DNA from: Archangium gephyra
Lineage (GTDB): Bacteria; Myxococcota; Myxococcia; Myxococcales; Myxococcaceae
Reading direction: 5' to 3'
Length of the DNA: 64,000 bases
Assembly (NCBI RefSeq): GCF_001027285.1
Contig: NZ_CP011509.1
Location: forward strand, 2,240,501 to 2,304,500
Part shown: in pieces, positions 7,001-64,000 of the stretch
Layout of the letters: every line of letters starts with the position of its first letter
Position numbering within the stretch: position 1 is the stretch's first letter
Program-made: the position numbers and the translations under genes
Notes under the pieces: generated by a model
Seen by the model: only the letters and a program-made list of their open reading frames with translations
Told to the model about the DNA's origin: nothing
Databases searched by the model: none

Positions 7001-8551
7001 CTGCCCGGAGTCGACGGAGAAGGCGGCGCCACAGCCGGGACGCAGCGCGGGGTGGCTCTCCTCCACGGTGCGCTCGAGATCCTGCGGGTAGTGGTTCCGG
7101 CCGCGGATGATGATCAGATCCTTGATGCGGCCGGCGAAGAACAGCTCGCCCTCGTGGAGGAAGCCCAGGTCCCCGGTGCGCAGCCAGGGGCCGTCGCCGG
7201 TGTCGGCGCGCATGGCGAGGAAGGTGTGCCCGGTCTCCTCGGGGCGGTTCCAGTAGCCCTGGGCGACGCTCGGGCCCGACACCCAGATTTCACCCACCCG
7301 GTCCGAGGAGCAGCGCGTGCGCGTGACGGGGTCCACGATGACGACCTGCTCGTCCAGCCACGGGCGGCCCAGGCCCACCAGGCGCCGCGAGCCCGGCGTG
7401 CCCTCGGGCAGCTCGACGACCCACCAGGACTCCAGCGCCGCGCCGTCCACCGTGCGCACCGTGCGCCGCGTGCCCGCGAAGCCGCCCGTCACCATGAGCG
7501 TGGCCTCGGCCAGGCCGTAGAGCGGGCGCAGCGCGTCCGTGCGCAGGCCGGTGGAGGCGAAGGTCCGGGTGAAGCGCTCCAGCGTGTCGGCGCGCACGGG
7601 CTCGGCGGCGTTGAAGGCGTAGCTCCAGCTGCTCAGGTCCAGCCCCTCGCGCTGCTCCGCCGTCACCTTGCGCGCGCACAGGTCGAAGGCGAAGTTGGGC
7701 CCGCCACTGAGCGTGCCGCGGTAGCGCGAGATGGCTCGCAACCAGCGCACCGGCTTCTGCAGGAAGGACTCGGGCGGCAGCAGGACGATGGGGAAGCCGG
7801 CGTACACCGGCTGCAGCACGCAGCCGATGAGCCCCATGTCGTGGTACATCGGCAGCCAGCTCACGCCGACGGAGTCCTCCGTGGAGCCGAAGGCCCGCTG
7901 GATGATGGCGGAGTTGTGCAGCAGGTTGCCGTGGGTGAGCTGCACGCCCTTGGGCACGGCGGTGGAGCCCGAGGTGTACTGGATGAAAGCGGGCGTGCTG
8001 GCCGTCACCTCCGGAGGCCGCCACGCCTGCTCGATGCCCGGCTCCAGCGCGTCGGTGGCCACCCAGCGCAGCGCGGCGAGCTCCGGCGCGTGGCTGGTGA
8101 GCCCGTCCACCAGCTCGCGGATGGCGCGGGTGGTGAGCACCAGGGTGGCCTGGGCATCCTGGGCGATGGCGCGCAGCCGCGGCAGCGTGCGGTGCAGGCG
8201 CGAGGGCTCCGGCGGGTACACCGGCACGGCCACGACTCCGGCGTACAGCGCACCGAAGAAGGCGGCGGCGTAGTCCAGCCCGAAGGGGTAGAGGAGCAGG
8301 GCGCGCTCGCCGGCCGCGGCCGAGCGCTGGAGCGTGGCGGCGATAGCCCGGGCCCGCTGGTCCAGGCCCGCGAAGTCCAGCTGCTGGGTCTCCGTCTCTC
8401 CGTCTTCCAGGAGGGTGAAGACGCGGCGCGAGGGCTGCTCCAGTGCCCTCCGCCGCAGGATGTCCACAAAGGTCGAGCCGGGCTCGCGACGCACCACTGC
8501 CTGGGGCTTCATGTCTCTCGGCACCGCGGATGGGGGGAGCCGGATCTTCAT
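4040..8551 (-). CDS. Fatty acyl-AMP ligase / acyl carrier / acyl-ACP-reductase-like fusion, 1503 aa
   Basis: Predicted to activate a fatty acid, load it on its own carrier domain and reduce it to an aldehyde. Residues 20-600 are a fatty acyl-AMP ligase (FAAL): FIQYTSGSTAVPKGV, WLPMYHDMGLIG, and the GRIKDLIIIRGRNHYPQDLE hinge typical of FAALs rather than CoA ligases. Residues 615-690 are an acyl carrier domain with phosphopantetheine Ser640 in LGLDSM. Residues 700-1090 are a region I cannot assign. Residues 1100-1490 resemble cyanobacterial long-chain acyl-ACP reductase: RLTTGHATTAACFV, nucleotide motif LLGAGSIGTAI near 1272, and a Cys at 1437 in LMGCVFSSIL aligning with the catalytic Cys region. 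An alternative ATG lies at 8512. Neither start has a strong ribosome site. The final product could feed ether-lipid or alkane-type metabolism, which is inference. Confidence 0.82.
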   Translation of the reverse strand: MKIRLPPSAVPRDMKPQAVVRREPGSTFVDILRRRALEQPSRRVFTLLEDGETETQQLDFAGLDQRARAIAATLQRSAAAGERALLLYPFGLDYAAAFFGALYAGVVAVPVYPPEPSRLHRTLPRLRAIAQDAQATLVLTTRAIRELVDGLTSHAPELAALRWVATDALEPGIEQAWRPPEVTASTPAFIQYTSGSTAVPKGVQLTHGNLLHNSAIIQRAFGSTEDSVGVSWLPMYHDMGLIGCVLQPVYAGFPIVLLPPESFLQKPVRWLRAISRYRGTLSGGPNFAFDLCARKVTAEQREGLDLSSWSYAFNAAEPVRADTLERFTRTFASTGLRTDALRPLYGLAEATLMVTGGFAGTRRTVRTVDGAALESWWVVELPEGTPGSRRLVGLGRPWLDEQVVIVDPVTRTRCSSDRVGEIWVSGPSVAQGYWNRPEETGHTFLAMRADTGDGPWLRTGDLGFLHEGELFFAGRIKDLIIIRGRNHYPQDLERTVEESHPALRPGCGAAFSVDSGQEERLVVVQEVYREREGDSLEDITHAARQSVAAAHGIHLDTLVLVRHGTMPKTSSGKIQRGACKQDYLAGTLEILHTARLAPPRAEPTDASPSAFLREQLARLIGIAPEALDPRRTLAELGLDSMRQLELQQLLEGRYGLTLRVEKLLSHPLGQLLEELGTRKPRAESGPFSIAWDVARDAPALWHYLREAEPWVAEELERMKRDIPVPPTNGTFDTEGFFRPQGHFRSFYRRGPGESVLAIKGAEVRCEDQLGFFQLLQQRLFERFAKHSVTNTLEYFLIQERKVPGAVTLPEALNEAQRAAELQGRFLEEYHEPGGLPLPLLVVRWSEEVVARFRSRLLPLLSGFTLTIAQNELRDGLACYVYWFPKAPFPRVSHFAGTLAQESQRTGSGGFANTRLVYATLKHNLDPEAVVDSWVRLTARLLLLGYFPSDIQHFKNGQCIEPQNVLLNGTFADLDSVIPMRQLGSDREFYASFLAMLNLLAHTVRVFLTAESNGTTTLPSPFPHQFQRPDFLEMLSVLHIWERLKVHLREQRQELRGTLDPRLEELVSSQLSFPVLFEKVLFSLYYAGPTLPESAVHLLGVADVYNDVGGSEERKPARKVEYSAKLSVDAAALATLPRAFLEQLRLTPREFIRDCLHGEASLVSVYETFLGRIGLIVLPLEDAALYVDKQRTVDAVVRGLEEAARLGADTVSLTGLVPSATDYGRALVEATAGRSGLPRLTTGHATTAACFVMMVEQVLRAGGRRLEDEHVTLLGAGSIGTAILRLLLRTLPHPRSLRLCDVPARRDYLLRLTEELVTELGFQGKVEVTCISGGTAPDEVYEASVLLSATSAANLLDVDKLRPGTLVVDDSAPHCFDPRRAIRRFQERRDVLFTEAGAIRSHRPVGEIRELSFATGWDHKIRAALKLLHPLDDTLMGCVFSSILSSRFEDAPCLVGTPTPRDLDLHYRKLRELRFEAARLYIEDYVLDEDLVAMFRARFGTGAR

Positions 8552-8630
8552 CCGGCAGCCCCGTGGGCTTCAATGGCGGTGGGGAGCGCCCGGCTGCATC
8601 GGGTGGGGCAGGGTCACCCCACCTGGGTAC

Positions 8631-9671
8631 TCAGCGACGCCGGGGGCGCGAGCGCCGTGCGTAGGCGGGCGCGGTGGCCTTGCGCCGGCCCAGCAGTGCG
8701 GCCAGCGTCAGTCCGGCGGCGACGAGCAGGGGCATGCCACCAGTCGAGGAGGCGCCGCAGCTCGCGGGCGGCATCCCCGTGCCGGCCAGCGTCGCGTCCG
8801 CGGGGACGATGCCGCCCGTCCCGGGAATGGTGTCCGAGGGCTGCTGGGCGATGGGCGACGGCTGCTCGGGCGGAGGATCTCCCTCACCCGAGGAACCATC
8901 CTCCGGCGTGCTCTCCGGGGCCGGGGCCGGGGCCGGCTGGGGCTCCGGGGTGGCGACGACGGGCGCGGGCATCACGTCCTCCAGGCGTGTGGCCTGGACG
9001 AAGCCGTCGTGGAAGACCACGCCCTCGGGGGCGATGGACGCGTCGCGGTACAGGCCCATCTTGAGGTAGTTGCGCTGGCCCGAGTACTGGGTGGCCACCT
9101 TCATCAGCGGCAGGACGACCTTGCCGTTGTGGTACAGCTCGACGAAGCCGACCTTGGGATCCGGCGACCACTTCACGTGCAGCACGAAGTCGTTCCACTG
9201 CTCACGCAGGAGCGGGGAGCGCCAGACGATCTTCCCGGTGCTGCCGCCCACGCGCAGGCGCAGCTGATCATCCACCACGTAGAACTCGAGCGGCGGCGAG
9301 CCACCGCTGCCATCGTGGTGCCACTGGGTGAAGATCTGCCACTTGGAGGAGCGCGGGAAGCTCTTGGGGAAGAGGGTGCTCCACTTGTAGAAGAACTCGG
9401 AGCCGGGCGCTTCACGGTCCAGGTAGAGCAGCTCGTTGCGGTTGCCACTCGCGTTGATGGGATCATCGCCCTGGCGGACGGTGGTCTTCAGCGCGTAGCG
9501 GCCCTCTCGCACAGGCGAGCTGACCACCAGCAAGCGGCTCGAGGAGACGGTCTGCTCGCGGTCCCACTGCGAGAGGTTGCCGGTCTCGAAATTTCCCTCC
9601 CACACAGTGGAGGCGGTCGCCAGGGTCGGCAGCAGCAGCGCGATGGGGGCAAGTCTCAGCAATCGCTTCAA
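8631..9671 (-). CDS. Secreted polysaccharide-lyase-like protein with MYXO-CTERM-like tail, 346 aa
   Basis: Likely an exported carbohydrate-binding or lyase protein of the heparin lyase I-like jelly-roll type (PF14099-like). Evidence is the NELLYLDREAPGSEFFYKWS region, WQIFTQWHHDG, and a concanavalin-like strand pattern up to about residue 240. TTG at 9671 is preferred: AAAGGA sits 6 nt upstream and the first residues form a clean signal peptide (KRLLRLAPIALLLPTLATA). An upstream frame to 9848 lacks this context. A Pro/Glu-rich linker (about 245-300) leads to SCGASSTGG, a hydrophobic helix and Arg-rich end, the pattern of MYXO-CTERM surface sorting. Catalytic activity is not proven by sequence. 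Confidence 0.72.
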   Translation of the reverse strand: MKRLLRLAPIALLLPTLATASTVWEGNFETGNLSQWDREQTVSSSRLLVVSSPVREGRYALKTTVRQGDDPINASGNRNELLYLDREAPGSEFFYKWSTLFPKSFPRSSKWQIFTQWHHDGSGGSPPLEFYVVDDQLRLRVGGSTGKIVWRSPLLREQWNDFVLHVKWSPDPKVGFVELYHNGKVVLPLMKVATQYSGQRNYLKMGLYRDASIAPEGVVFHDGFVQATRLEDVMPAPVVATPEPQPAPAPAPESTPEDGSSGEGDPPPEQPSPIAQQPSDTIPGTGGIVPADATLAGTGMPPASCGASSTGGMPLLVAAGLTLAALLGRRKATAPAYARRSRPRRR

Positions 9672-49397: not shown

Positions 49398-49655
49398 GTC
49401 ACCCTCCGGAACGCGGATGCGGGGGAACATATGCGCTCGGCTCCTCGCGGGCGCATCAATACGTCGTCACACGCCCCCTCCCACGAGGCCGAGCCCGCCG
49501 TCCGGTGCCGGATGTGGGAGGTGCAACCGTTGGCCGGATGACGGCCGGGCCACCCCCGCTCGGAGGGGGCCGGGGCGGGCGCGGGGGCTGGCACGGTACA
49601 TTTCCAGACCCTTCCCCCCCGGAGGCCACAGGACCTCCGCTCAGAGAGTGTCACC

Positions 49656-52737: not shown

Positions 52738-52758
52738 ACGGGGCTCCAGGGGGGCAGG

Positions 52759-53990
52759 GTAGGTTCCGGACGTCACCCCGGAGCCTTCACCCTCATGAAC
52801 CTCCTGCCGTTGATCCTGGTGCTCGTCACCACTCAGATTCCCTGTGGGCCCAGGGAGTTCTCGGACACCTGCAAGTGCAAGCAGGGCATGGCCACCGCCT
52901 GTGAGGCGTTGCGCCAGACGGACAAGAAGTTGGCGGATGCGCTGGAAGCGGCGGCCAGGCAGGAGGCGCGGAAGGTGGTGGAGGCCGCCCATGCGCAGCA
53001 AGGCGCCGAGGAGTCAGGCGCGTCGGAGTCCGAGGGAGAGGAAGCCGCGCAGGTGTCCTCGGATGCGCCCGAGCCTCCCGAGTGCACGGGCCAGGAGCAC
53101 CACGTCATCTCCAGGCGCATCGCCAGGGCGCTGAAACAACACCCCATTCTCAGAGGGCTCTACAAGGCTCGGGATAAGCGCTTCGTCGCCCAGGCCAAGG
53201 ACGAGGAATCCCACTGTGGGTACCAGCGATGGCACCGAGATGTGGATGATGAGGTGGTCGCATGGTTGCGCAAGACCGAAGATGCGACTCGCGAGCAGTT
53301 CGAAGCCTACCTGCGAGAGATCTATTCCCGGCCAGACATGCTCGCGAGATTTCCCAATGGATATGGCCCTCTCTAATTCCCCGCGCTTCTTCGTTCTGGA
53401 CAAGGAGAAGTGGGGGAGTCACGACACCGAGTTCTACAGAGTCGACGAAGACGACGACGTAGGCGAGGCGCCTCGATGTCCCCGGTGCGGAAGATTCATT
53501 GGAATGCTGCCATGGCTCCCCCCCTACCGTGTCGTGTTGGAGCTCTATGGCAAGGAGTTGGGCGACTTCGCGGAGGGATTTGCTAATTCGCTTGTCAGTG
53601 AGCGCTTCGCCGAGACCTTCCGTGCGGAGGGACTCAGGGGGTTGGAGGGCTTTCACCCCGTAGAGGTGCGGCGGGTGCGCAGGCAGCGCCGGGGCTCGAA
53701 GCCCTCCACCGTGCCTGGTTATTTCCTGGTCACGCCCATCTTCGGCAGTGCGGCGGTGGATGAGGCTCGCAGCCGTTTCCGGCGCTCCGCGCCCATCTCC
53801 TGTGATTGGTGCCGCTTGACCGGAGTGGATGGCATCTACGGATTTGCTCTCGAGCAGGGGAGTTGGAATGGCGATGACGTCTTCATCCCCCGTGGCCTGT
53901 CCGGCACCATCGTCGTCTCCGAGCGCTTCGCGGACTTCGTGGCCCGGCACGGCTTCACCAACATGAAGCTGACGCCCACGGAGGAGTACA
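52759..53990 (+). repeat. Long direct repeat, left copy (toxin/immunity unit 1)
   Basis: From GTAGGTTCCGGACGTCACCC through the toxin gene and most of the double-CXXCG gene, closely related to 62992-64000 at an offset of 10,233 bp. The noncoding leader and first half of the toxin are nearly identical; the end of the toxin and the immunity gene are more divergent. The right-hand boundary is approximate because the second copy runs off the window. Confidence 0.8.
52795..53376 (+). CDS. SitA-like polymorphic toxin candidate with AHH/HNH-like nuclease end, copy 1, 193 aa
   Basis: Exported N-terminus (MNLLPLILVLVTTQIPCGP); the Cys after QIP is not a canonical lipobox, so lipidation is uncertain. 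A conserved helical segment follows (CKCKQGMATACEAL), then an acidic Glu/Ala/Ser linker (about 58-98), and a C-terminal domain beginning GQEHHVISRRIARAL and holding ESHCGYQRWHRDVDDEVVAWL. Paired HH and later His/Asp residues resemble AHH/HNH nucleases used as toxin tips. The adjacent overlapping double-CXXCG gene is the expected immunity protein, as in SitA/SitI systems of Myxococcus. Toxicity is inferred. Confidence 0.68.
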   Translation: MNLLPLILVLVTTQIPCGPREFSDTCKCKQGMATACEALRQTDKKLADALEAAARQEARKVVEAAHAQQGAEESGASESEGEEAAQVSSDAPEPPECTGQEHHVISRRIARALKQHPILRGLYKARDKRFVAQAKDEESHCGYQRWHRDVDDEVVAWLRKTEDATREQFEAYLREIYSRPDMLARFPNGYGPL

Positions 53991-54079
53991 CGTGGGACCC
54001 CCTGCGGCGTGGCCCTCCGCCCTCGACTCCGGGCGGGCCGGCTTCTTCGGGGGGCGCGACGGGAGGTGCTGCGTGCTAG
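53357..54079 (+). CDS. Double-CXXCG motif protein, candidate immunity protein (SitI-like), copy 1, 240 aa
   Basis: Soluble protein with two zinc-type Cys pairs, CPRCGRF near residue 40 and CDWC near residue 152, typical of the myxobacterial double-CXXCG paralogous family. Other family segments: SPRFFVLDKEKWGSHD, GFHPVEVRRVRRQRRG, FLVTPIFGSAAVDEARSRF. The start at ATG 53357 is inside the toxin gene (20-nt overlap) and matches the start used by copy 2; ATG 53363 is possible. The Pro/Gly/Ser-rich tail (from about 215) is not in the usual core. The stop overlaps the ribosome site of the next gene, so it is linked to the NLR-like gene. Confidence 0.8.
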   Translation: MDMALSNSPRFFVLDKEKWGSHDTEFYRVDEDDDVGEAPRCPRCGRFIGMLPWLPPYRVVLELYGKELGDFAEGFANSLVSERFAETFRAEGLRGLEGFHPVEVRRVRRQRRGSKPSTVPGYFLVTPIFGSAAVDEARSRFRRSAPISCDWCRLTGVDGIYGFALEQGSWNGDDVFIPRGLSGTIVVSERFADFVARHGFTNMKLTPTEEYTWDPLRRGPPPSTPGGPASSGGATGGAAC

Positions 54080-54088
54080 GAGTACCTT

Positions 54089-57000
54089 GTGCTCCTAGCC
54101 CCCTCCTACACGCGGGTTGCCGTGGTGCAACTCGCCTACCACCCCGCCATCATCGCTGGGTTGCGCTCGCCTCTCGAGGATCCGCTCTACTCGCCCCGAC
54201 AGGGTGACTCCCTGCTGCCCTCGGGTGGGCAGGGGCCAATGTCCCCAGAGCTGAAGAAGCAGCTCGATGCCCTCCGCACGCGCGTGCGCGAGGCGTATGA
54301 CGCCCAGCTCCTGGCCAAGATCCGGGCCGTGCTAGATACGTGCCGGGCCTGGAAGGTCCGCCTCGTCGTCTTCCCCGAGTACAGCATTCCCTGGGAGATC
54401 CTCGGTGGCGTCGCTGACGCGGCCGGGGACATGGTGGTGGTCGCCGGCACGCATACTGTCGAGCGTGCCGCCCGCCGCAAGGGCATCTACGAGCGCCTCG
54501 TGGCGCCGGGACTTCCCTCCGTGGGCCAGTCCGTCTGCCCCGTCCTCCATCAGGGCCGGCTCCTCGCCCTCCAGCCCAAGCTGAACCCCGCCGTGCCTGA
54601 GCGGGACTCGATGAAGCCCGGCGAGGCTTGGAGCCCCGTGGCCCTGCCCGAGGGGCTCCCCGGACCCATGGGGGTGTTGATCTGCCTGGACTTCCTGTTC
54701 CGGGAGTCGGAGCGCTCCCGGGCCCTTGTCGCCGAGCAGCTCAGGCAGTGCCGCTTCCTCGCCATCCCCAGCCTCACTCCGCACTACACGCTGCCCGAGT
54801 TCGCCGGGAAGGCCTGGGAGGAGGCCCGGCGTTACGGACGGCCGGTGCTCTACTGCGACAGCGCGGATGGAGGCGGCACCTCGCTCTACGTGGACGAGGG
54901 CTCTCCCGCCGACTTGCGCCAGTTCCCCGAGCGCGCGGGCTACCTTGAGCCGGGCGACGAAGGCGTCATCGTGGCGGACGTGAACCTCGGCCATGAGCGC
55001 CCCGGTTCCTCCACACGCTATGACGCGCCGAGAGCCATCCTCCCCGTGGCCGAGGCGACGCTTGTCTACCAGGCCCAGCCCGCAGGCCAAGCCTATGCCG
55101 GGTGGCTCGCGCAGGCGGCTCCGTTGCTTGCACGTGAGGACGATGAAGCGCTCGAGGCACTCGTCGAGCACGTCGAGCAGGGGCGGGACATCCTCCTCAA
55201 CGCGGGGGCTCTGTCTGGGGCCAGGGCGCGGGACCGGCGTCTGCGGCGGCTGGCTGGCTCGCTCGACAAAGTGACGAGCCTCGAGGACTTGCGGCGCTTC
55301 ACGCGCGAGGTGGTGCTCCCTCCAGACGTGCTTCCGCTTGAGGCGCTGCGGGGGGCGATGGCGCGCGGGGCCGCCAACGTGGTGTTCGACTGGCTCGGAA
55401 ACCGGGAGGCTGGGGCGGCGGGGCTCGCCGAGGTCGAGGAGAAGCTGCGCAAGGCCGCCGAGGCGGGCAGGCGCGAGCACGCCTGGGCTACCGGAGTGTT
55501 GCCGGTGCTGGATGCAGTGGCCTCGGCGGTGCAGGGGGCGCCAGAAGTGAGGGAGTCACCGGCCATGGCACCGGTCCCGGAGGTGAGGGTGGTGCTGCCG
55601 AGTGGCATGGACCCCGCAGGGCTCGGGGTGCGGCGCCACGCCGGATGGGTGCTCTCGTTCAAGGCGAAGCCCGGGGACTTCCGCGTGTACGGAGATGCGT
55701 CACGGGAGAAGCTCCGCACGGGGGCTCGGCAGCTCCAGGGGGACGTCAAGGAGACGGAGGCGGGTCCTCGCTTCATCCAAGTGCGGCTCGACGCGGCCGA
55801 GGAACTCTACTCCCTGGCCATCGCCGAGGGCGCCGAGCGGGTGGCCGTCGTGGGGGTCTGGGAGGAGGAGACCCCGGACCTTGCCGCGCTCCTCATCGCC
55901 GTCGAGCGGGCCGGTGCGTGGACCCTCTGGTCCGATGGGGATGATGACTGGTGGGGGCCGGAGCGGGATCACCTCAAGAAGAACCTCCAGGCAGCTCTCC
56001 GTGAGAGTGGTCTGGAGGGCGCGGAACTGGTGTTGATCCCCTTCGAGGAGCTGTGGGAGCGCCTCCTCGCCCTGCTGGCACGATTCGAGAGTGCAGGTGC
56101 GCGCGCCAGGGTCGAGGCCCTGCGCGAAGGTCGCCTGCGCGAGGTCCAACAGCAATTCATCCAGCCAGACGCGCTTGTGGATGACGCAGTGCGAGTGCCT
56201 GTCTTGGAGGCACTCGATGCGTGGCTCGGCTCGGAGAAGTCGATCGCGCTCGTGCTCGGCGAGTTCGGCTCGGGCAAGTCCACGGCGCTCGCCGAGTGGG
56301 CCAGTGTCCACTGGGCGCAAGAGGGGGAGCGACCCCGCCTCCTCCTGGCCAGCCTCGCCGGGGCCTCGACCTCACAAGACGCGGAGGCGCTCCTGCTCGA
56401 GGCCGCCGCCTTGGAGGAGGCTCCCGCCCATCGCGCGGCACTGCGCGTGCTCGTGCGGCGGAGCCTTCTCGTGCCCTGCTTCGACGGCTTCGACGAGATG
56501 GCGACCCGCCTGGACGCCTCGGAGCTCGCCGGTCGGCTCTCGGAGCTGCTCTCGGTGGCCGGGAGATGGGGGAAGGTGCTCGTCTCCTCGCGCACCCACT
56601 ACTTCTCCAGCGAGGAGCAGCTCCGGACCGCGGTGACGGAGGCGCTCACGAGGACCCTGGGGCAATCCGCCGGGTTCCAGCGCATTGAGCTCCAGCCCCT
56701 CACCGGCGAGCAGGTCGAGCGGCTCGTGCGCAAGATTCTTCCCGAGCAGGGGCAGGCGGACCACGCGCTCGACCGCATCGCCAGGACCTATGATCTCCAG
56801 GATCTCGTGCATCGCCCGTTGCTGCTCGGGATGGTGCTGAAGACCCTGGACCAGCTCGCTCCGGGCTCCCGGGTGGGGCGGGCGGACCTGTACGAGGCCT
56901 ACCTCGCGCGCTGGCTCGAACAGACACGGTCCTCGGATCCGGATGTCTTCACGGACGAGCAGAAGATCGCCTTCGCCGAGTCGCTCGCCGAGGGGCTCTG

Positions 57001-60000
57001 GAGCTCCGGGCGGCCGGACTGCAGCTGGCAGGAGTTGCAGAAGTCGGTGAGGGCGAGGCTGGTGCAGCTCCTTCCTGATGCGATGCCCGTGGGAGCGGCA
57101 CACCTGGAGATTCAAGGGGGCGCCTTCTTCGTGCACGAGGGTGAGGACCGGTACCGTTTCGCGCACAAGTCCTTCCTTGAATATTTCCTGGCACGGGCCA
57201 TCGTGCACACGCTCCCGGAGCGGCCCCTGGATGCCCTGCGGACCAGACCCTTGACCCCGGAGGTGGCCGCATTCGTCGGGGAGATTCTGCGCCGCGAGGG
57301 CGAGCCTCGGAGCACGCAGGCGGTAAAGGCCGTCCATCGGTTCCTCACTGATGTCCGTCCCCTGGCACCGGACAAGGAGGCTGCGGCCAATGCGGTCCGG
57401 CTCCTGCTGGGGCTCGCCCGATGGGCGGGAGACGGCGAGGGATGGTTTCCGGCGCGAGCGGACCTGCGCGGCGTCGTGCTCGTGAAAGAGGATCTCCGCG
57501 GCGTCCGCTTCGTGGGGGCCAATCTCACGGGAGCCGAGCTGACAGCATCGGATCTCTCGGAGGCCGATCTCTCGGACGCCTGCCTCTACAAGGCCCGCCT
57601 TGCGGGTACGCGGCTCTTCAAGACGAGGCTCGAACGGGTGCAGGCACGTGAGGCGGACTTCACCCGAATCGAAGCGGACCAATCCCTTCTCACGGGAGCG
57701 GATCTCAGAGAGGCGCGTCTGCAGCAATCGACTTGGGCGCGTTGCCAGTGGCGGGAGGCCCGGCTCGATGGGGCAGAGATCACTGCTTGGGCGGCCCCAG
57801 CGTCCGAGCCCGCTTGGCCGCAGGCTCTATCAGTCACGAGGAACAGGCTTGAGGCTGCACTTGCGACAGGGCATCGGGATGCAGCCGTTGCTGTGGCATG
57901 GGACGGAGAGGGAAGGCGGCTGGTGTCTGGAGGGGGAGATGGAACGGTGCGGGTTTGGGAGGTGGGAAGCGGCAGCGAGTTAGCCCGAATGGAGGGGCAT
58001 GGCGATTGGGTGAGGTCTGTGGCGTGGGACGCAGAGGGACGGAGGCTGGCGTCCGGAGGGGAAGATGGAACGGTACGGGTGTGGGAGGCAGAGAGCGGTA
58101 GAGAGCTGACCCGCCTGGAGGAGTTTAGCGGGCCGGTGTTGTCCGTGGCGTGGGACGCAGAAGGCCGAAGGCTGGCGTCCGGAAGTGCCGATGGAACGGT
58201 GAGGGTTTGGGAGGTGGGAAGCGGTAGAGAGGTGGCCCGACTGGAGGGGCATAGCGGGGTGGTGTGGTCCGTAGCGTGGGACTCAGAGAGCCGAAGGCTG
58301 GCGTCCGGAAGTACCGATGGAACGGTGAGGGTTTGGGATGCGGGACGCGGCAGCGAGCTGGTCCGAATGGAGGGGCATGATGGGGCGGTGTGGTCCGTGG
58401 CGTGGGACTCAGAGAGCCGAAGGCTGGCATCCGGAGGGGACGATGGAACAGTGAGGGTGTGGGATGCGGAGAGTGGCAGCGAGCTGGTCCGCCTAGAGGT
58501 GCCTGGCGATTGGGTGAGGTCCGTGGCGTGGGACGTTGGGGGACAGAGGCTGGCGTCCGGAGGGGAAGATGGAACGGTGCGGGTGTGGGAGGTGCGGAGC
58601 GGCAGCGAACTGGTTCGCCTGGAGGGGCATGGTGAGGCGGTGTGGTCCGTGGCGTGGGACGCAGAGGGCCGGAGGTTGGCGTCCGCAGGGGACGATGGAA
58701 CGGTGTTGGTCTGGGATGCGAGGAGCGGTAGTGAGCTGACCCGCCTGGAGAGGCATGTCAGCAGGGCGGTGGGGTCCGTGGCATGGGATGCAGAGGGCCA
58801 GAGGCTGGCGTCCAGCGGGGAAGATGGAACGGTGAGGGTGTGGGATGCGGTGAGCGGCAGCGAGCTGGCCATCTTGGAATGGTATGGCCATTCAGTGTGG
58901 TCCATGGCGTGGGAGGCGAAGGGACCGAGGCTAGCGGTTGGAAATGGCGATGGATCAGTATGGGTATGGGAGGAGGGGAGCGGGAGCAAGCCGGTTCGGG
59001 TGGAAGGGCATGGTGGGACGGTTAGATCAGTGGCATGGGATGCAGAGGGACGGAGGCTGGCATCCGGAGGGGACGATGGCGCGGTGTGTGTATGGGACGT
59101 GGAGAGTGGCAGTGAGCTGGCTCGCCTGGAAGGGCATGGTGGGGCGGTTAGGTCAGTGGCATGGGACGCAGAGGGGCAGAGACTGGCGTCCGGAGGGGCA
59201 GATGGAGCGGTGAGGGTGTGGGATGCGGAGAGCGGCAGCGAGCTGGCCTGCCTGGAGGGGCATGGCGGGGCGGTGTGGTCCGTGGCGTGGGACGCAGAGA
59301 GCCGAAGGCTGGTGTCCGGAGGTGCGGATGGAACGGTGAGGGTGTGGGATGCGGGGAGCGGCAGCGAGCTGGCCCGACTGGAGGGGCATGGCGGAGCGGT
59401 GTGGTCCGTGACGTGGATTGCAGAGAGCCGCAGGCTGGCGTCCGGCGGGGAAGATGGAACGGTGAGGGTGTGGGATGCGGGGAGCGGCAGCGAACTGGCC
59501 CAACTGGAGGGGCATGATGGGGCGGTGTGGTCCGTGGCATGGGACGCAGAGGGCCGGAGGCTGGCGTCCGGAGGGGATGATGGAACGGTAAGGGTGTGGG
59601 GGAGGCCTCAATGGGCTCTTCTTGGAATTTTCCAAGTGGTTGGAGAATCGACCCTGGCCCGTACGCCCGAGGGATTCTGTGTTTTCGGCAATGCAGGAGC
59701 GGAACGCATTCATCTGACCCTTCACCCTCCCGGGGAAAACCCAGACAGCGAAATTTATCTACCCCTCTCCGGCCTGCGTGACGTCTTTCACAATCCAGGC
59801 AAAGTCGCCAACGCGCTCGCCGGAGAGGTGGGCGGTGACACCGTTTGGGATGAACTCGAGAAGCTGGGGTTTGGAGAAGGGACGAGTTGGACCGGCAATG
59901 TGGTGCGTATGCCGCCACAACCCGTGGTCGAGGGGCCTCATCCCGAGCCATCCACCTCGGAGCGGGCTCTTGCTCCCAATCCCTTCCATCCGGGGCCAGC

Positions 60001-60961
60001 ACTCACCGGTTCTTCCGGCGTCCCCGGCCGTGAGGCGGTCCTGTCGGATCTCAAGGCCCTTATCGAGAGCCATAGCCCTGCTCTCCTGCGTGGCCCCAGG
60101 CGCGCCGGCAAGACATCCATCCTGCACGCTCTCGCGCTCCAACTGGCATCCACTCACACCGTCCGCCATGTCTCGCTCGAGGCCCGGCGGCTCGTGACGG
60201 AGGATGATCTGGCTCGCACCCTGGAGCCCTCGCTTGCGGGCGAGCCCGCCCCGGCCTCCATCCTGCGCGCCCGGCTCCGGGCGGAGCCCGCTTCCGTGCT
60301 GCTCATCGATGAGATCGCCAACCTGCGAGCGGCGGATGCCTCGGTGTTCGCCTGGCTTCGCGCCGTTGGTCAGGAGAGCACCAGCATCGTCCTCGTGGGC
60401 TCGCACTGGGACTGGGTCGAGGTGGTCCGGCAGGCCGCATCGGCTCCGGGCTCGTCCTTCGGCAATGACGTCACCCCGGTCAACCTGGGGCCGCTGTCCG
60501 AGACGGATGCGCTCGACTTCCTTGTAAACACGGCCCCGTCGGATGTGCCACTGGCCCGCGATGGCACGGCTCGTTGGATCATCGAGCGCTGCGGTACCTG
60601 GCCCTTCTACCTCCAGGTGTTGGGCTATGCCGTGGTGCAGGCCGTGCGCACCGGCAGTCGGCAGTCGCTCGTCGAGCCCTCGGGGGTGACGGAGCTCTAC
60701 GAGAACCGCCTCCTGGTGGATCGCGACGTTGGCTTCTTCCGCACGCGGTGGGCGGAACTCCCCGCGAGAGCCCGTGCGGTGCTCTGGCGCGTGCGCTCCT
60801 CGCCGGACGCGAGCCTGCCTCAGGTGCGCACTCTTTCTCCTGAGGACCGGAAGATCCTCCGGGATACGGGGCTCTGTGATTCCCTGGGCCGCTGGCTGGA
60901 GGACAAACCCTTCTACGACTGGCTCCGGCGGATCGCTGACGAGGAGCTGGGGAGGAACTGA
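54089..60961 (+). CDS. NLR-like protein: nitrilase, NACHT, pentapeptide repeats, 14 WD40 repeats, STAND ATPase, 2290 aa
   Basis: GTG start at 54089, with AGGAG 6 nt upstream overlapping the previous stop. Domains: (1) nitrilase-like amidohydrolase, about 8-310, with Glu97 (VVFPEYS), Lys164 (LQPKLNP) and Cys199 (LICLDFLF), a complete catalytic set; (2) region 310-700, partly helical; (3) NACHT NTPase, about 710-1000, with P-loop GEFGSGKST at 724-732 and Walker B-like CFDGFDEM at 797-804; (4) pentapeptide-like repeats, about 1125-1240 (ANLTGAELTASDLSEADLSD); (5) 14 WD40 repeats, 1262-1837; (6) linker; (7) second STAND/AAA ATPase, about 1985-2290, with P-loop GPRRAGKTS at 2002-2010 and LLIDEIANL. 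The architecture is that of a sensor-switch-effector protein. The nitrilase may be the effector; what the WD40 sensor sees is unknown. Confidence 0.88.
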   Translation: MLLAPSYTRVAVVQLAYHPAIIAGLRSPLEDPLYSPRQGDSLLPSGGQGPMSPELKKQLDALRTRVREAYDAQLLAKIRAVLDTCRAWKVRLVVFPEYSIPWEILGGVADAAGDMVVVAGTHTVERAARRKGIYERLVAPGLPSVGQSVCPVLHQGRLLALQPKLNPAVPERDSMKPGEAWSPVALPEGLPGPMGVLICLDFLFRESERSRALVAEQLRQCRFLAIPSLTPHYTLPEFAGKAWEEARRYGRPVLYCDSADGGGTSLYVDEGSPADLRQFPERAGYLEPGDEGVIVADVNLGHERPGSSTRYDAPRAILPVAEATLVYQAQPAGQAYAGWLAQAAPLLAREDDEALEALVEHVEQGRDILLNAGALSGARARDRRLRRLAGSLDKVTSLEDLRRFTREVVLPPDVLPLEALRGAMARGAANVVFDWLGNREAGAAGLAEVEEKLRKAAEAGRREHAWATGVLPVLDAVASAVQGAPEVRESPAMAPVPEVRVVLPSGMDPAGLGVRRHAGWVLSFKAKPGDFRVYGDASREKLRTGARQLQGDVKETEAGPRFIQVRLDAAEELYSLAIAEGAERVAVVGVWEEETPDLAALLIAVERAGAWTLWSDGDDDWWGPERDHLKKNLQAALRESGLEGAELVLIPFEELWERLLALLARFESAGARARVEALREGRLREVQQQFIQPDALVDDAVRVPVLEALDAWLGSEKSIALVLGEFGSGKSTALAEWASVHWAQEGERPRLLLASLAGASTSQDAEALLLEAAALEEAPAHRAALRVLVRRSLLVPCFDGFDEMATRLDASELAGRLSELLSVAGRWGKVLVSSRTHYFSSEEQLRTAVTEALTRTLGQSAGFQRIELQPLTGEQVERLVRKILPEQGQADHALDRIARTYDLQDLVHRPLLLGMVLKTLDQLAPGSRVGRADLYEAYLARWLEQTRSSDPDVFTDEQKIAFAESLAEGLWSSGRPDCSWQELQKSVRARLVQLLPDAMPVGAAHLEIQGGAFFVHEGEDRYRFAHKSFLEYFLARAIVHTLPERPLDALRTRPLTPEVAAFVGEILRREGEPRSTQAVKAVHRFLTDVRPLAPDKEAAANAVRLLLGLARWAGDGEGWFPARADLRGVVLVKEDLRGVRFVGANLTGAELTASDLSEADLSDACLYKARLAGTRLFKTRLERVQAREADFTRIEADQSLLTGADLREARLQQSTWARCQWREARLDGAEITAWAAPASEPAWPQALSVTRNRLEAALATGHRDAAVAVAWDGEGRRLVSGGGDGTVRVWEVGSGSELARMEGHGDWVRSVAWDAEGRRLASGGEDGTVRVWEAESGRELTRLEEFSGPVLSVAWDAEGRRLASGSADGTVRVWEVGSGREVARLEGHSGVVWSVAWDSESRRLASGSTDGTVRVWDAGRGSELVRMEGHDGAVWSVAWDSESRRLASGGDDGTVRVWDAESGSELVRLEVPGDWVRSVAWDVGGQRLASGGEDGTVRVWEVRSGSELVRLEGHGEAVWSVAWDAEGRRLASAGDDGTVLVWDARSGSELTRLERHVSRAVGSVAWDAEGQRLASSGEDGTVRVWDAVSGSELAILEWYGHSVWSMAWEAKGPRLAVGNGDGSVWVWEEGSGSKPVRVEGHGGTVRSVAWDAEGRRLASGGDDGAVCVWDVESGSELARLEGHGGAVRSVAWDAEGQRLASGGADGAVRVWDAESGSELACLEGHGGAVWSVAWDAESRRLVSGGADGTVRVWDAGSGSELARLEGHGGAVWSVTWIAESRRLASGGEDGTVRVWDAGSGSELAQLEGHDGAVWSVAWDAEGRRLASGGDDGTVRVWGRPQWALLGIFQVVGESTLARTPEGFCVFGNAGAERIHLTLHPPGENPDSEIYLPLSGLRDVFHNPGKVANALAGEVGGDTVWDELEKLGFGEGTSWTGNVVRMPPQPVVEGPHPEPSTSERALAPNPFHPGPALTGSSGVPGREAVLSDLKALIESHSPALLRGPRRAGKTSILHALALQLASTHTVRHVSLEARRLVTEDDLARTLEPSLAGEPAPASILRARLRAEPASVLLIDEIANLRAADASVFAWLRAVGQESTSIVLVGSHWDWVEVVRQAASAPGSSFGNDVTPVNLGPLSETDALDFLVNTAPSDVPLARDGTARWIIERCGTWPFYLQVLGYAVVQAVRTGSRQSLVEPSGVTELYENRLLVDRDVGFFRTRWAELPARARAVLWRVRSSPDASLPQVRTLSPEDRKILRDTGLCDSLGRWLEDKPFYDWLRRIADEELGRN
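57872..59599 (+). repeat. Tandem array of 14 near-identical 126-bp WD40-coding repeats
   Basis: Each unit encodes 42 residues (one encodes 43) of the pattern H-GxV-SVAWDAEGRRLASGG-DGTVRVWD-SGSELARLEG. Fourteen units fit two seven-bladed propellers. Identity is visible at DNA level, with strong G-richness on the + strand, implying recent expansion or gene conversion. Differences cluster in the loops after the His and after LASG. Confidence 0.93.
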
Positions 60962-62910
60962 TGGCACCCGTATTCGATGCCCGTGCGGACTACGTCGCCG
61001 CGCGAGACGTGCGCGACCATGCGGAGCTGGTGGCCCTCCTCGGCGGCCTGCCGCAGAAAGGTGTCCTCTTCCCCCTGGTCGGGGCACGCCGTGCTGGCAA
61101 GACATGGGAGCTCAAGGCCCTGGAGCACACTCTCGCGGGCCCACGCGGCGGCGCGGTACGCTACGTGGATCTGCGGCGCTATGGGCCCGACTTCTCCAAG
61201 GTGCCGGAGGCGGAGTGCCTGCTCCTGGATGAGCCGGAACTCACTGGCACAGGAGCGCGAGTGCGACCGGCGGAGAACTTCCTGCGCTGGTGCGAGGAGC
61301 GGCACCGTGGGGGCACTACCCTGCTGCTCGCCATGAGCCCGGCGGAGTGGGTGGTCCTTCAGCGGGAAGGAGAGTCCCATGGGCTGGTCTCCGCGAAGGA
61401 TCTCCGCTTTCTCGCTCCCCTCCAGCCAACTCAGGCGGAACGTATGGCGACGCGGACGGAGCAGTCGCGGAAGTTGCTTCCCCGGCTCCCGGACATCTGG
61501 AAGCGCAGCCCGTTCCTGCTCGAACTGGCCTTCCAGGTGGCGGAGGAACTCGGTGCGCAGGCGGAGGATGACGTCTGGGAGTTGCTCAGGCTGATCCGCG
61601 AGCGCAGCGAGTATGCCGAGTTCCATTACTTCGAGGCCGTGTACCGCAACGGGCTCACAGAGGAGCAGCGCGCGGTCTTGAATGATGTGGCCCACGCCGA
61701 GTCAGCGGACAAGAAGGAACTCGACCTGCTCGTGCGCTGTGGTCTCGTGGGGAAGGAAGGCGCGCGTCATGTACTCGCGGATCCCATCCTCGCGGCGGAC
61801 CTGAGCCCCCTGCGCCTCCACCACATCTCCGATCTGCACTTTGGTCCCAAGTCGGCCGAGCGCGTCGATGTGAAGGACTCGGGAGCGCATGCGCGGCGGA
61901 TGGCCACGGGGTTGGGCCCGAAGCACGTGCGCGACGAATACCTGCGCCATGTCGCGAGCTTGAAGGCCATGGGCCGGGCGCCTCACGTGCTCATTGTTTC
62001 GGGAGACCTCGTCGAGTGGGGGGACGATGCGCAGTTCGAGGATGCGAGGGGCTGGCTTGAGAAGGTCCTCGAGCACCTGGAGGAGCACCCGCGCCTGAGG
62101 CCCGACGAGCCCCACCTGTTGCTCGCCGGGGGAAACCACGATGTGGACTGGCGGCAGACGGAGGGGGAGGCGGGGGCTCGCAAGCGGCACGTGCCCTTCG
62201 CGCGGGCCTTCGACTCGTTGTCCCGCTCGCTGCGCGTGCGGCTTGAGGAGGCTCCCGAGTCGAGGCAGCTCGCCATTGCCCGCTATCCGGAGCTCGGCCT
62301 GGAGATCCTCCTGCTGGGCTCGGCGGAGTTCGGAGGTGAGCAGGAGAAGGACCCGGCACGCGAGGGGCTGCTCGAGCTGGTGGAGCGGCTGCGCAAGGAG
62401 GCGATGGCGAAGCCGGAGCACGAGCGGGCGGCGGCGTTGCATCAGCAGGTGGCGAGGATCGATCCGGGGCTGGTGCACGGCGAGGACCTGGCGAGGGTTC
62501 GCCGGGAGCCCTGGTCCCAACCGGTGCGGTTGGCGGTGCTCCACCATCCGGTCTCGCCCCTGCCGATGACGGAACTCGGCCGTTATGTGGGGTTGATCAA
62601 CGCGGGAGAAGTGAAGGACCGGTTGATGGAGAAGGGGTTCTGCCTGGTGTTGCATGGGCATGCGCACACGGGCTGGTTTGGCAAGGAGGCGTGGCCCGGG
62701 CGGCATGGGGACCAGGTGCTGTGGATTGCCTCGGCGCCTTCGCTGGGAAGCCGCGAGGTGCAGGAGCACCATGGGTTCAACGAGATCGTACTCTCCCGCG
62801 AGCCCCATGGAAGCGAGACTACGTACTCGCTCACGGTGCTTCGCCACAGCCGGGAGGGCGGGAGTTGGGTGGAGCGCTCTCGGATGGACTGCCGGCCGGG
62901 TTCAGTCTGA
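60961..62910 (+). CDS. ATPase / metallophosphoesterase fusion protein, 649 aa
   Basis: Overlaps the NLR-like gene by one base (TGATG), so it is translationally coupled. The N-terminal part (about 10-275) is a STAND/AAA-like ATPase with P-loop GARRAGKT at 41-48 and Walker B CLLLDEPEL. The C-terminal part (about 285-640) is a calcineurin-like metallophosphoesterase with all metal-site motifs: D291 and H293 (HISDLHFG), D349 (SGDLVEW), N392-H393-D394 (GGNHD), HHP and G-H-A-H at 566-569. Calcineurin-like domains joined to NTPases are known as effectors in bacterial conflict systems. The target (nucleic acid, nucleotide or protein phosphate) is unknown. Confidence 0.88.
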   Translation: MAPVFDARADYVAARDVRDHAELVALLGGLPQKGVLFPLVGARRAGKTWELKALEHTLAGPRGGAVRYVDLRRYGPDFSKVPEAECLLLDEPELTGTGARVRPAENFLRWCEERHRGGTTLLLAMSPAEWVVLQREGESHGLVSAKDLRFLAPLQPTQAERMATRTEQSRKLLPRLPDIWKRSPFLLELAFQVAEELGAQAEDDVWELLRLIRERSEYAEFHYFEAVYRNGLTEEQRAVLNDVAHAESADKKELDLLVRCGLVGKEGARHVLADPILAADLSPLRLHHISDLHFGPKSAERVDVKDSGAHARRMATGLGPKHVRDEYLRHVASLKAMGRAPHVLIVSGDLVEWGDDAQFEDARGWLEKVLEHLEEHPRLRPDEPHLLLAGGNHDVDWRQTEGEAGARKRHVPFARAFDSLSRSLRVRLEEAPESRQLAIARYPELGLEILLLGSAEFGGEQEKDPAREGLLELVERLRKEAMAKPEHERAAALHQQVARIDPGLVHGEDLARVRREPWSQPVRLAVLHHPVSPLPMTELGRYVGLINAGEVKDRLMEKGFCLVLHGHAHTGWFGKEAWPGRHGDQVLWIASAPSLGSREVQEHHGFNEIVLSREPHGSETTYSLTVLRHSREGGSWVERSRMDCRPGSV

Positions 62911-63027
62911 GCGAGCCGTGCTGGCAGGCAAAGGTTTCGTGGCGAGCACCACCTGACAGGATTGCTCCAGGGCTGGGCAGGGCGCTGCATGGTAGGTTCC
63001 GGACGTCACCCCGGAGCCGTCACACTC

Positions 63028-63600
63028 ATGAATCTCCTGCCGTTGATCCTGGTACTCGTCACCACGCAGATCCCATGTGGACCCAGGGAACTCTCGGTCA
63101 CTTGCAAGTGCAAGCAGGGGATGGCCACCGCCTGTGAGGCGTTGCGCCAGACAGACAAGAAGCTGGCGGATGCGCTGGAAGCGGCGGCCAGGCAGGCGGT
63201 GAGGGAGGTGGTGCAGGCCGCCCATGCGCAGCAAGGCGCCGAGGAGTCAGGGGCGTCGGAGTCCGAGGGAGAGGAAGCCGCGCAGGCATCCTCCGATGCG
63301 CCAGAGCCTCCCGAGTGCACGGGCCAGGAGCACCACATCATCTCCAGGCGGATAGCCAGGGAGTTGGACAATCACCGCATACTTCGAGGTGCTTACAAAG
63401 CTCGGGACCGGCGATTCGTTGCGCAGGCCAAGGACGAAGAATCACACTGCGGATACCAACAATGGCATCGTGACGTGGACGATGAGGTTGTCGAGTGGCT
63501 CAAAACGAATAAAGCCGCGACCTCAAGAACGTTCGAGGATTTTCTGCGGGAGATCTACTCCCGGCCAGAGATGCTCGCGAGATTCCCCAATGGCTATTGA
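63028..63600 (+). CDS. SitA-like polymorphic toxin candidate, copy 2, 190 aa
   Basis: Very similar to the 52795 protein: same exported start (MNLLPLILVLVTTQIPCGP), same Glu/Ala/Ser linker, and GQEHHIISRRIARELDNHRI with ESHCGYQQWHRDVDDEVVEWL. Differences are concentrated in the nuclease-like end: ALKQHPILRGL becomes ELDNHRILRGA, and the helix after VVEWL is replaced (KTNKAATSRTF). It ends in FPNGY, 3 residues shorter than copy 1. ATG 63028 matches copy 1; a longer frame from 62962 is discarded. It overlaps its immunity gene by 11 nt. Confidence 0.68.
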   Translation: MNLLPLILVLVTTQIPCGPRELSVTCKCKQGMATACEALRQTDKKLADALEAAARQAVREVVQAAHAQQGAEESGASESEGEEAAQASSDAPEPPECTGQEHHIISRRIARELDNHRILRGAYKARDRRFVAQAKDEESHCGYQQWHRDVDDEVVEWLKTNKAATSRTFEDFLREIYSRPEMLARFPNGY

Positions 63601-64000
63601 ATCCTCCACATCCCCACGCTTCTTCGTTTTGAAGCATGAAAGAGGGGGGAGTCACGACGTCGATTTCACCAGCAGCGATAACAATGTAGGCGAAGCAGCG
63701 AGATGCCCGCAGTGTGGAGACTTCATTGGCTCGCTGCCGTGGTTGCCACCTCACCGAGGCACATTGGAACTTTACGGAAAGGACCCTGGCGATTTCGTCA
63801 GGGGGGTCGGTGATGAAGTCCTCATCAGCGAACGCCTGGTTGAGGCTTTCCGTGCGGAGGGCCTCACTGGCTTGATAGGCTTCCATCCCGTGGAAGTGCT
63901 GCGGGTGCGCAGGCAGCGCCGCGGCCCCAAGACACCCACGACGCCCAGATATTTCGTGGTCACTCCCGTGTTTGGCGGTGCGGCTGTAGACGAACACCGC
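63590..64000 (+). CDS. Double-CXXCG candidate immunity protein, copy 2, 5' part
   Basis: Open to the window end, 137 codons visible. Starts at ATG 63590 inside the toxin gene: MAIESSTSPRFFVLKHERGG. The first Cys pair is CPQCGDF; the second would lie beyond the window. Shared with copy 1: SLPWLPPHRG, GFHPVEVLRVRRQRRG, FVVTPVFGGAAVDEHR. The first 80 residues differ more than the toxin halves do, as expected if immunity has co-diverged with the toxin tip. Confidence 0.8.
   Translation, partial: MAIESSTSPRFFVLKHERGGSHDVDFTSSDNNVGEAARCPQCGDFIGSLPWLPPHRGTLELYGKDPGDFVRGVGDEVLISERLVEAFRAEGLTGLIGFHPVEVLRVRRQRRGPKTPTTPRYFVVTPVFGGAAVDEHR

Follow-up and report, generated by a model that had tools for sequence, protein, structure and literature searches.

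Within a 64,000-nt stretch of Archangium gephyra DNA (hereafter the window: assembly GCF_001027285.1, contig NZ_CP011509.1, positions 2,240,501-2,304,500 of the forward strand), two overlapping forward-strand genes behave as one unit. They are a receptor gene (54089..60961; window positions are used throughout) encoding 2290 aa and a partner gene (60961..62910) encoding a 649-aa ATPase-phosphoesterase. The receptor runs from an N-terminal nitrilase through a NACHT NTPase, pentapeptide repeats and 14 WD40 repeats to a second, C-terminal STAND-type ATPase, which together with its relatives we call CTAAA. This composition and the one-base overlap with the partner had been described in an earlier note on this DNA and are confirmed here, with both folds modelled and the catalytic residues intact. 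Judging from sequence and structure models, we propose that the two genes probably make up a single conflict unit of NLR-like type, which most likely acts against phages through abortive infection and in which the calcineurin-like metallophosphoesterase (MPE) of the partner would be the main output, engaged via paired STAND ATPases, and the nitrilase a second enzyme.

Two genes behaving as one unit

Comparison of the chromosome with itself placed the pair between two forward-strand copies of a repeat. Copy 1 (52754..54042) comprises small genes, the second of which is Imm11-like and extends to 54079 (Pfam Imm11 21.9 bits, just under the cut-off of 22.1); it matches 62987-64272 at 81%, copy 2 (62987..64000) continuing to about 64272, past the end of the window. 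The 8,944 bases between the copies (54043-62986) hold little besides the two genes and the final 37 bases of the Imm11-like open reading frame. Five congeneric genomes (G061-G065) were set against that of the window, and none carries the pair at the syntenic site. In G063, where the left flank is 92% identical, a partial and a near-complete repeat copy lie adjacent and the pair is absent, a diverged pair being present elsewhere in that genome. The flanks at 52748 and 67132 are about 30 bases apart in G064, and a different 2.2-kb stretch lies between 52744 and 68262 in G061. In G062 and G065 the left flank stops at 49551 and 49998, respectively, and the right flank resumes at 64363 after about 110 and 75 bases. 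The simplest reading is that the lineage of the window gained the pair; loss elsewhere would equally have removed both genes jointly. The region between about 49551 and 68262 varies among the six congeneric genomes compared.

Searching 195 Myxococcota genomes with the partner gave strong matches in five, and the nitrilase part of the receptor matched strongly in the same five; each search also returned one weak, uncounted match in another genome (G164, G153). We further fetched 78 partner loci from genome contigs with a partner alignment. At each of the 21 that cover at least about 500 of the 649 residues (L009-L029, of which L016-L029, 14 in all, are actinobacterial), a CTAAA relative forms the end of the same-strand gene immediately upstream; the reading frames of L029 appear disturbed. 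The other 57 loci, mainly phosphoesterase-domain matches, were excluded from this count. Among the 120 partner homologues listed of 129 found, 22 lie on contigs of identical size to those of a receptor or CTAAA protein, 15 of these pairs on contigs below 1 Mb and seven on whole chromosomes, which show the same genome only. This list and that of 117 nitrilase homologues (the window's own protein included as P0121) are samples, each drawn from a candidate set capped at about 8,000.

Receptor and partner are thus one unit, because the repeats bracket the pair, both genes are present or absent together at the site, both match strongly in the same five of 195 genomes and a gene ending in a CTAAA relative directly precedes the partner at 21 of 21 loci. 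The coupling claimed in the earlier note holds, and so does the conservation of the pair that it named as a check. By the same evidence we reject a chance neighbourhood of two unrelated signalling genes overlapping by accident, an explanation which has nothing in its favour beyond the general gene density of bacterial genomes and to which we give next to no probability.

Domain architecture and conservation of the two enzymes

The GTG start of the receptor is consistent with the N-termini of its homologues. A structure model and fold comparison show the alpha-beta-beta-alpha fold of a nitrilase (CN_hydrolase; 54107..55066, aa 7-326) with an intact Glu-Lys-Cys triad (E97, K164, C199), bearing out the expectation that the cysteine lies in a nitrilase fold; a sequence search of solved structures with this domain alone gave a best E of 0.58 and no nitrilase among its matches. 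The structure model further indicates an all-helical region (55079..55546, aa 331-486) and a poorly conserved alpha/beta domain (55601..56158, aa 505-690). The latter gave no match in a Pfam scan and lacks strongly conserved residues in an alignment of 97 sequences; the order of its helices and strands may be reminiscent of PD-(D/E)XK nucleases. The NACHT NTPase (56246..56746, aa 720-886) was identified by Pfam (PF05729, 35.5 bits against a cut-off of 26.7) and in a genome search, with Walker A at aa 724 and Walker B at aa 797. Pentapeptide repeats (57455..57790, aa 1123-1234; Pfam 74.7 bits) precede the 14 WD40 repeats (57857..59623, aa 1257-1845), a number that would fit two 7-blade propellers. 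An adaptor segment (59624..59953, aa 1846-1955), recognisable in homologues that end in SIR2, leads to CTAAA (59954..60958, aa 1956-2290; AAA_14/AAA_22), which has Walker A from aa 2001 and Walker B from aa 2070. A NACHT NTPase with Walker motifs is thereby joined to C-terminal superstructure-forming repeats, the layout of an NLR-like receptor, in support of the NLR-like composition claimed before. The window's genome holds ten further NACHT-like matches, and the nitrilase part was matched at this locus only.

The partner begins with a STAND-like ATPase (60961..61800, aa 1-280), recognised by its invariant residues and structure model, which matches CTAAA weakly (27.7% identity over 166 columns). 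Calcineurin-like MPEs share the metal-ligand motif DxH...GD...GNHD...H...GHxH, and the second domain of the partner (61801..62907, aa 281-649; Pfam and fold) carries the full set of ligands: D291, H293, D349, N392, H393, H529, H567 and H569. The structure model confirmed the MPE fold, with YydB, purple acid phosphatases, Lmo2642, GpdQ, Rv0805 and SMPDL3A as its nearest folds; a sequence search of solved structures with the partner found no match.

Both enzymes of the window look intact in their catalytic residues. Among the listed nitrilase homologues Glu-Lys-Cys is kept in 104 of 117, the other 13 having Y, G, H, A or L at the cysteine. The 117 comprise 76 with CTAAA and 41 without, the latter being four that end in SIR2 only, 17 of window type (some cut by contig ends) and 20 of another type. 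All 13 broken triads fall among the 76, as against 0 of the 41 (Fisher p 0.004, uncorrected for shared ancestry). The MPE metal residues are kept in 119-120 of the 120 listed partner homologues, and five partners linked to broken-nitrilase receptors retain all eight. We read this as nitrilase catalysis being probably dispensable where a CTAAA-phosphoesterase output exists and kept where that output is missing. As the better conserved enzyme, the phosphoesterase is favoured as the killing arm, a role already suggested for it, over the nitrilase-made signal proposed alongside.

Front ends, outputs and a possible relay

The earlier idea of nitrilase tip and phosphoesterase partner as one system stands in myxobacteria, but the partner is not tied to the nitrilase. 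FtsK_SpoIIIE domains were found in all four actinobacterial upstream genes scanned (L016, L020, L021, L024), and the nitrilase part matched in none of 13 searched actinobacterial partner genomes, whereas it matched in six of seven myxobacterial ones. The seventh is a metagenome-assembled genome whose contig starts inside the WD40 part; three of the seven (G196, G197, G199) have match positions identical to those of G099, G063 and G100 in the 195-genome nitrilase search. We therefore rejected the view that the nitrilase defines the system, since the partner module also stands behind FtsK front ends where the genome has no match to the nitrilase. L024 has another FtsK-type gene downstream, as do, judged from gene starts, L019 and L023.

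A search with CTAAA alone obtained 106 proteins, and the CTAAA end lies at most 100 residues from the C-terminus in 115 of 118 proteins. Beyond nitrilase receptors and FtsK proteins, its carriers include DUF4062-TPR-FtsK (P0257), kinase-FHA-FtsK (P0268), PNP-TPR (P0239) and NACHT-WD40 (P0278) proteins. DUF4062 has been described as an NAD-consuming immune effector (PMC13174449). Another carrier is the MPE-NACHT-FGE protein P0242, whose contig has the same size as one that holds a partner homologue. In P0241 an Eco57I-type methylase is fused to a protein kinase and CTAAA, an odd, restriction-like front end.

The end of the receptor also varies. SIR2 is an NAD-consuming immune effector, and a SIR2 domain stands at the C-terminus of at least six of the 117 nitrilase homologues, replacing CTAAA in four and following it in two (motif and precomputed Pfam); a Pfam scan confirmed two of the six ends at 90 bits. 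An initial reading of the annotation that put SIR2 between nitrilase and NACHT was rejected, as the sequence places it at the C-terminus. In Polyangium fumosum one such SIR2-ended receptor is present, but searches of the genome found neither a CTAAA match nor a full-length partner; beside this receptor (L155, ~6317-6838) lies a second, short nitrilase-like fragment with one stop inside the match. None of the six SIR2-ended receptors is on a contig size-matched to a listed partner, a weak comparison given that only 20 of 76 CTAAA receptors are. Front parts differ as well: one nitrilase homologue has a TIR domain ahead of the nitrilase, and in 20 BLAST finds nothing that matches the NACHT of the window; 19 of these keep the helical region. 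Three of this other type that were scanned (P0200, P0214, P0219) have a NACHT with TPR-PNP-EAD1, HEAT or FGE parts.

Relatives of receptor and phosphoesterase are thus joined to other partners in other bacteria, and their parts appear interchangeable. A bolder proposal, which we hold tentatively and as somewhat short of an even chance, is that CTAAA and the separate STAND-phosphoesterase gene form a portable relay plugged behind several unrelated immune front ends, here serving a nitrilase-tipped NLR with two independent killing enzymes. Its front ends would be the nitrilase-NLR, an FtsK pump, DUF4062-TPR-FtsK, kinase-methylase, PNP-TPR and MPE-NACHT-FGE, much as caspase recruitment serves many animal receptors. 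The partner gene was seen beside the nitrilase and FtsK types and on a same-sized contig for MPE-NACHT-FGE; for the other front ends it is only predicted.

Proposed mechanism, alternatives and known relatives

In the mechanism that we favour, the array of 14 WD40 repeats would recognise a proteinaceous trigger, and its binding would lead to NACHT-driven oligomerisation of the receptor. Oligomerisation would cluster the nitrilase tips and expose or cluster the C-terminal ATPases, and an exposed CTAAA may then pair with the similar ATPase of the partner, recruiting or activating the phosphoesterase. Hydrolysis of a cellular or phage phosphodiester or phosphoester (nucleotide or nucleic acid would be a guess) would stop growth. 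The nitrilase would be an additional, dispensable enzyme, its triad having been lost in some lineages without loss of the rest.

The proposed contact was evaluated by distance-matrix (Mantel) comparison of receptor/partner pairs, the finer run using 23 of 25. In partial Mantel tests the partner follows CTAAA given NACHT (0.80, p 0.0002) but not NACHT given CTAAA (-0.04, p 0.56), and the matrices fit a CTAAA-partner contact, which they may reflect. The correlation of the partner with the nitrilase half that carries C199 is low (r 0.46), which fits active-site decay. A module border inside the receptor gene, suggested by the first 25-pair comparison, in which the partner seemed to follow CTAAA but neither nitrilase nor NACHT, was dropped after the finer run.

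The blades of the WD40 array share on average 66% identity in protein and 75% in DNA. Blade positions 11, 9, 27 and 8 of our own register vary most in a set of 72 proteins that each have five repeats or more and in which the window's protein is entered twice, the second time under the name P0121. Fungal HNWD repeats are classified by seven positions of high dN/dS, namely 10, 11, 12, 14, 30, 32 and 39 (PMC12222747). These correspond at an offset of 3, which gives the highest variability of 42 offsets in all four arrays compared (window, L013, L014, L105), with pN/pS of 0.79-1.77 at the seven positions and 0.32-0.51 elsewhere.

The surroundings of the pair are immunity- and mobility-flavoured, without a conserved island. 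A TIR-nSTAND1-WD40 receptor lies about 4 kb upstream of the pair in L105 (880-5001). In L107 a TsiV-type immunity gene (7782-8723; PADLOC candidate PDC-M20B) precedes the nitrilase receptor, with about 20 bases between them. Other neighbours are PDC-S48 in Polyangium, a resolvase in L014, a PDDEXK_2 transposase-like gene in L108 and the Imm11-like gene of the window. Of the defence-island context expected earlier, immunity-related neighbours such as TIR-nSTAND1-WD40, TsiV and PDC-S48 were found, but the island itself was not.

Several observations count against a relayed antiphage function. The distances of the partner track CTAAA (r 0.91-0.94) but equally the helical region behind the nitrilase (r 0.94), so that we claim no recombination border, and the relay step would depend on the weak similarity of CTAAA to the partner ATPase (pairwise E 0.004). 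The P-loop residue G46 of the partner is R in 19 of 114 listed homologues, an argument against ATP hydrolysis being strictly required at that site. Neighbours vary from locus to locus with no conserved defence island seen, and PADLOC gave only weak partial or WD40-repeat-driven matches (with a 2023 library, absence from which excludes nothing). The partner was not found in plasmid or phage records, nor the nitrilase part in plasmids; viral contigs held one distant, MPE-only relative. For the sensor, pN/pS clearly exceeds 1 at the seven positions in only one of the four arrays. Moreover, hot-spot diversity at WD40 interaction sites is described as general in highly repetitive prokaryotic WD40 proteins (PMC5587647), and it is therefore evidence for a binding surface that changes fast rather than for defence itself.

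Three other explanations merit weighing. The nitrilase could be the main killing arm, hydrolysing an amide in some indispensable metabolite (NAD+ or glutamine, for example), and the phosphoesterase would then act as a brake, either clearing a nucleotide signal or resetting the switch. The intact triad in 104 of 117 homologues and the effector precedent of DRT1 (PMC13275509) agree with this, and in the receptors without CTAAA, all 41 of which keep the triad, the nitrilase may well be the effector. We nevertheless consider it unlikely for the pair, given that 13 CTAAA receptors have lost the triad while the MPE residues are kept almost throughout, and that the partner is also found with FtsK front ends where the genome offers no match to the nitrilase. 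We judge similarly improbable that the phosphoesterase is an SbcD/Mre11-like nuclease which the paired ATPases load onto invading DNA or RNA. Less likely still is that the unit serves not phage defence but allorecognition or a developmental self/non-self switch, as the myxobacterial equivalent of incompatibility receptors of the HET-E type in fungi. The NACHT-WD40 layout, the internally similar blades and the variable positions shared with fungal HNWD proteins would suit such a role, as would named hosts that are mostly multicellular bacteria (Myxococcota, Streptomyces) and insertion beside the Imm11-like gene in the window and the TsiV gene in L107. However, presence is patchy, with strong matches in only five of 195 Myxococcota genomes, no ligand gene was seen, and the variability is of the kind common in repetitive prokaryotic WD40 proteins.

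Among described systems, bacterial NACHT and Avs STAND antiphage proteins (named in PMC10907252) are close to the conflict unit that we propose: in both, a NACHT/STAND switch occupies the centre, with an enzyme on its N-terminal and a sensor on its C-terminal side. The unit differs in its nitrilase tip, second C-terminal ATPase and separate ATPase-phosphoesterase gene. DS-8 and DS-9 of DefensePredictor (PMC13092281) have a metallophosphatase domain of some similarity by NCBIfam score, DS-8 also a NACHT, and the metallophosphatase residues of DS-8 and DS-9A are required for phage defence (PMC13092281). With the DS-9A model (DS9_1 equivalog cut-off 420) the partner reaches 61.8 bits, and with DS8 (cut-off 790) 26.9 bits. 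DS-8 membership was rejected on this score, and DS-9 membership likewise, the coupled gene here being a nitrilase-NACHT-WD40 and not a HAD phosphatase; segment scans of the receptor outside its WD40 part found no HAD family. With a score so far below the DS-9A cut-off, the partner is a relative in kind and not a member.

DRT1 and a related reverse transcriptase-nitrilase (PMC13275509, PMC9122126) likewise have a nitrilase-superfamily domain in a defence protein, with activity tied to oligomerisation. The DRT1 nitrilase is an abortive-infection enzyme activated by oligomerisation, homo-oligomers being needed for its activity, and its authors remark that antiphage systems do not commonly contain nitrilases (PMC13275509). 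In the window the nitrilase instead forms the N-terminal tip of a NACHT receptor. No reverse transcriptase family came up when the segments were scanned with E values as high as 1, and DRT1 membership was rejected. The fungal HNWD NLRs HET-D and HET-E (PMC12222747, PMC4986451) likewise combine a NACHT with WD40 repeats that are very alike within one array and vary at the same blade positions, but their effector is a HET domain, and neither a nitrilase nor a C-terminal ATPase nor a phosphoesterase partner is described in the available parts of these papers. STAND conflict systems of multicellular bacteria (PMC7159879, PMC8195603, PMC10907252) have exchangeable effectors around STAND NTPases, calcineurin-like phosphoesterase and FtsK included, and PMC10907252 describes an MPE-NACHT sensor. 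The word nitrilase occurs in none of these three main texts as available, and the two-ATPase arrangement is not described there. Our literature searches gave no paper describing a nitrilase-NACHT system, in agreement with the earlier suggestion that the composition may be new.

If the proposal is true, it adds an enzyme class, the nitrilases, to the tips of NLRs, and the effectors of bacterial NLRs would be exchangeable at a fixed C-terminal slot, in cis as with SIR2 or in trans as with the phosphoesterase. The pair would be a tractable one, in which sensor diversification, relay and killing could be separated by single mutations. It would also link a validated but unexplained type of defence enzyme, the DS-8/DS-9 metallophosphatases, to a family in myxobacteria and streptomycetes.

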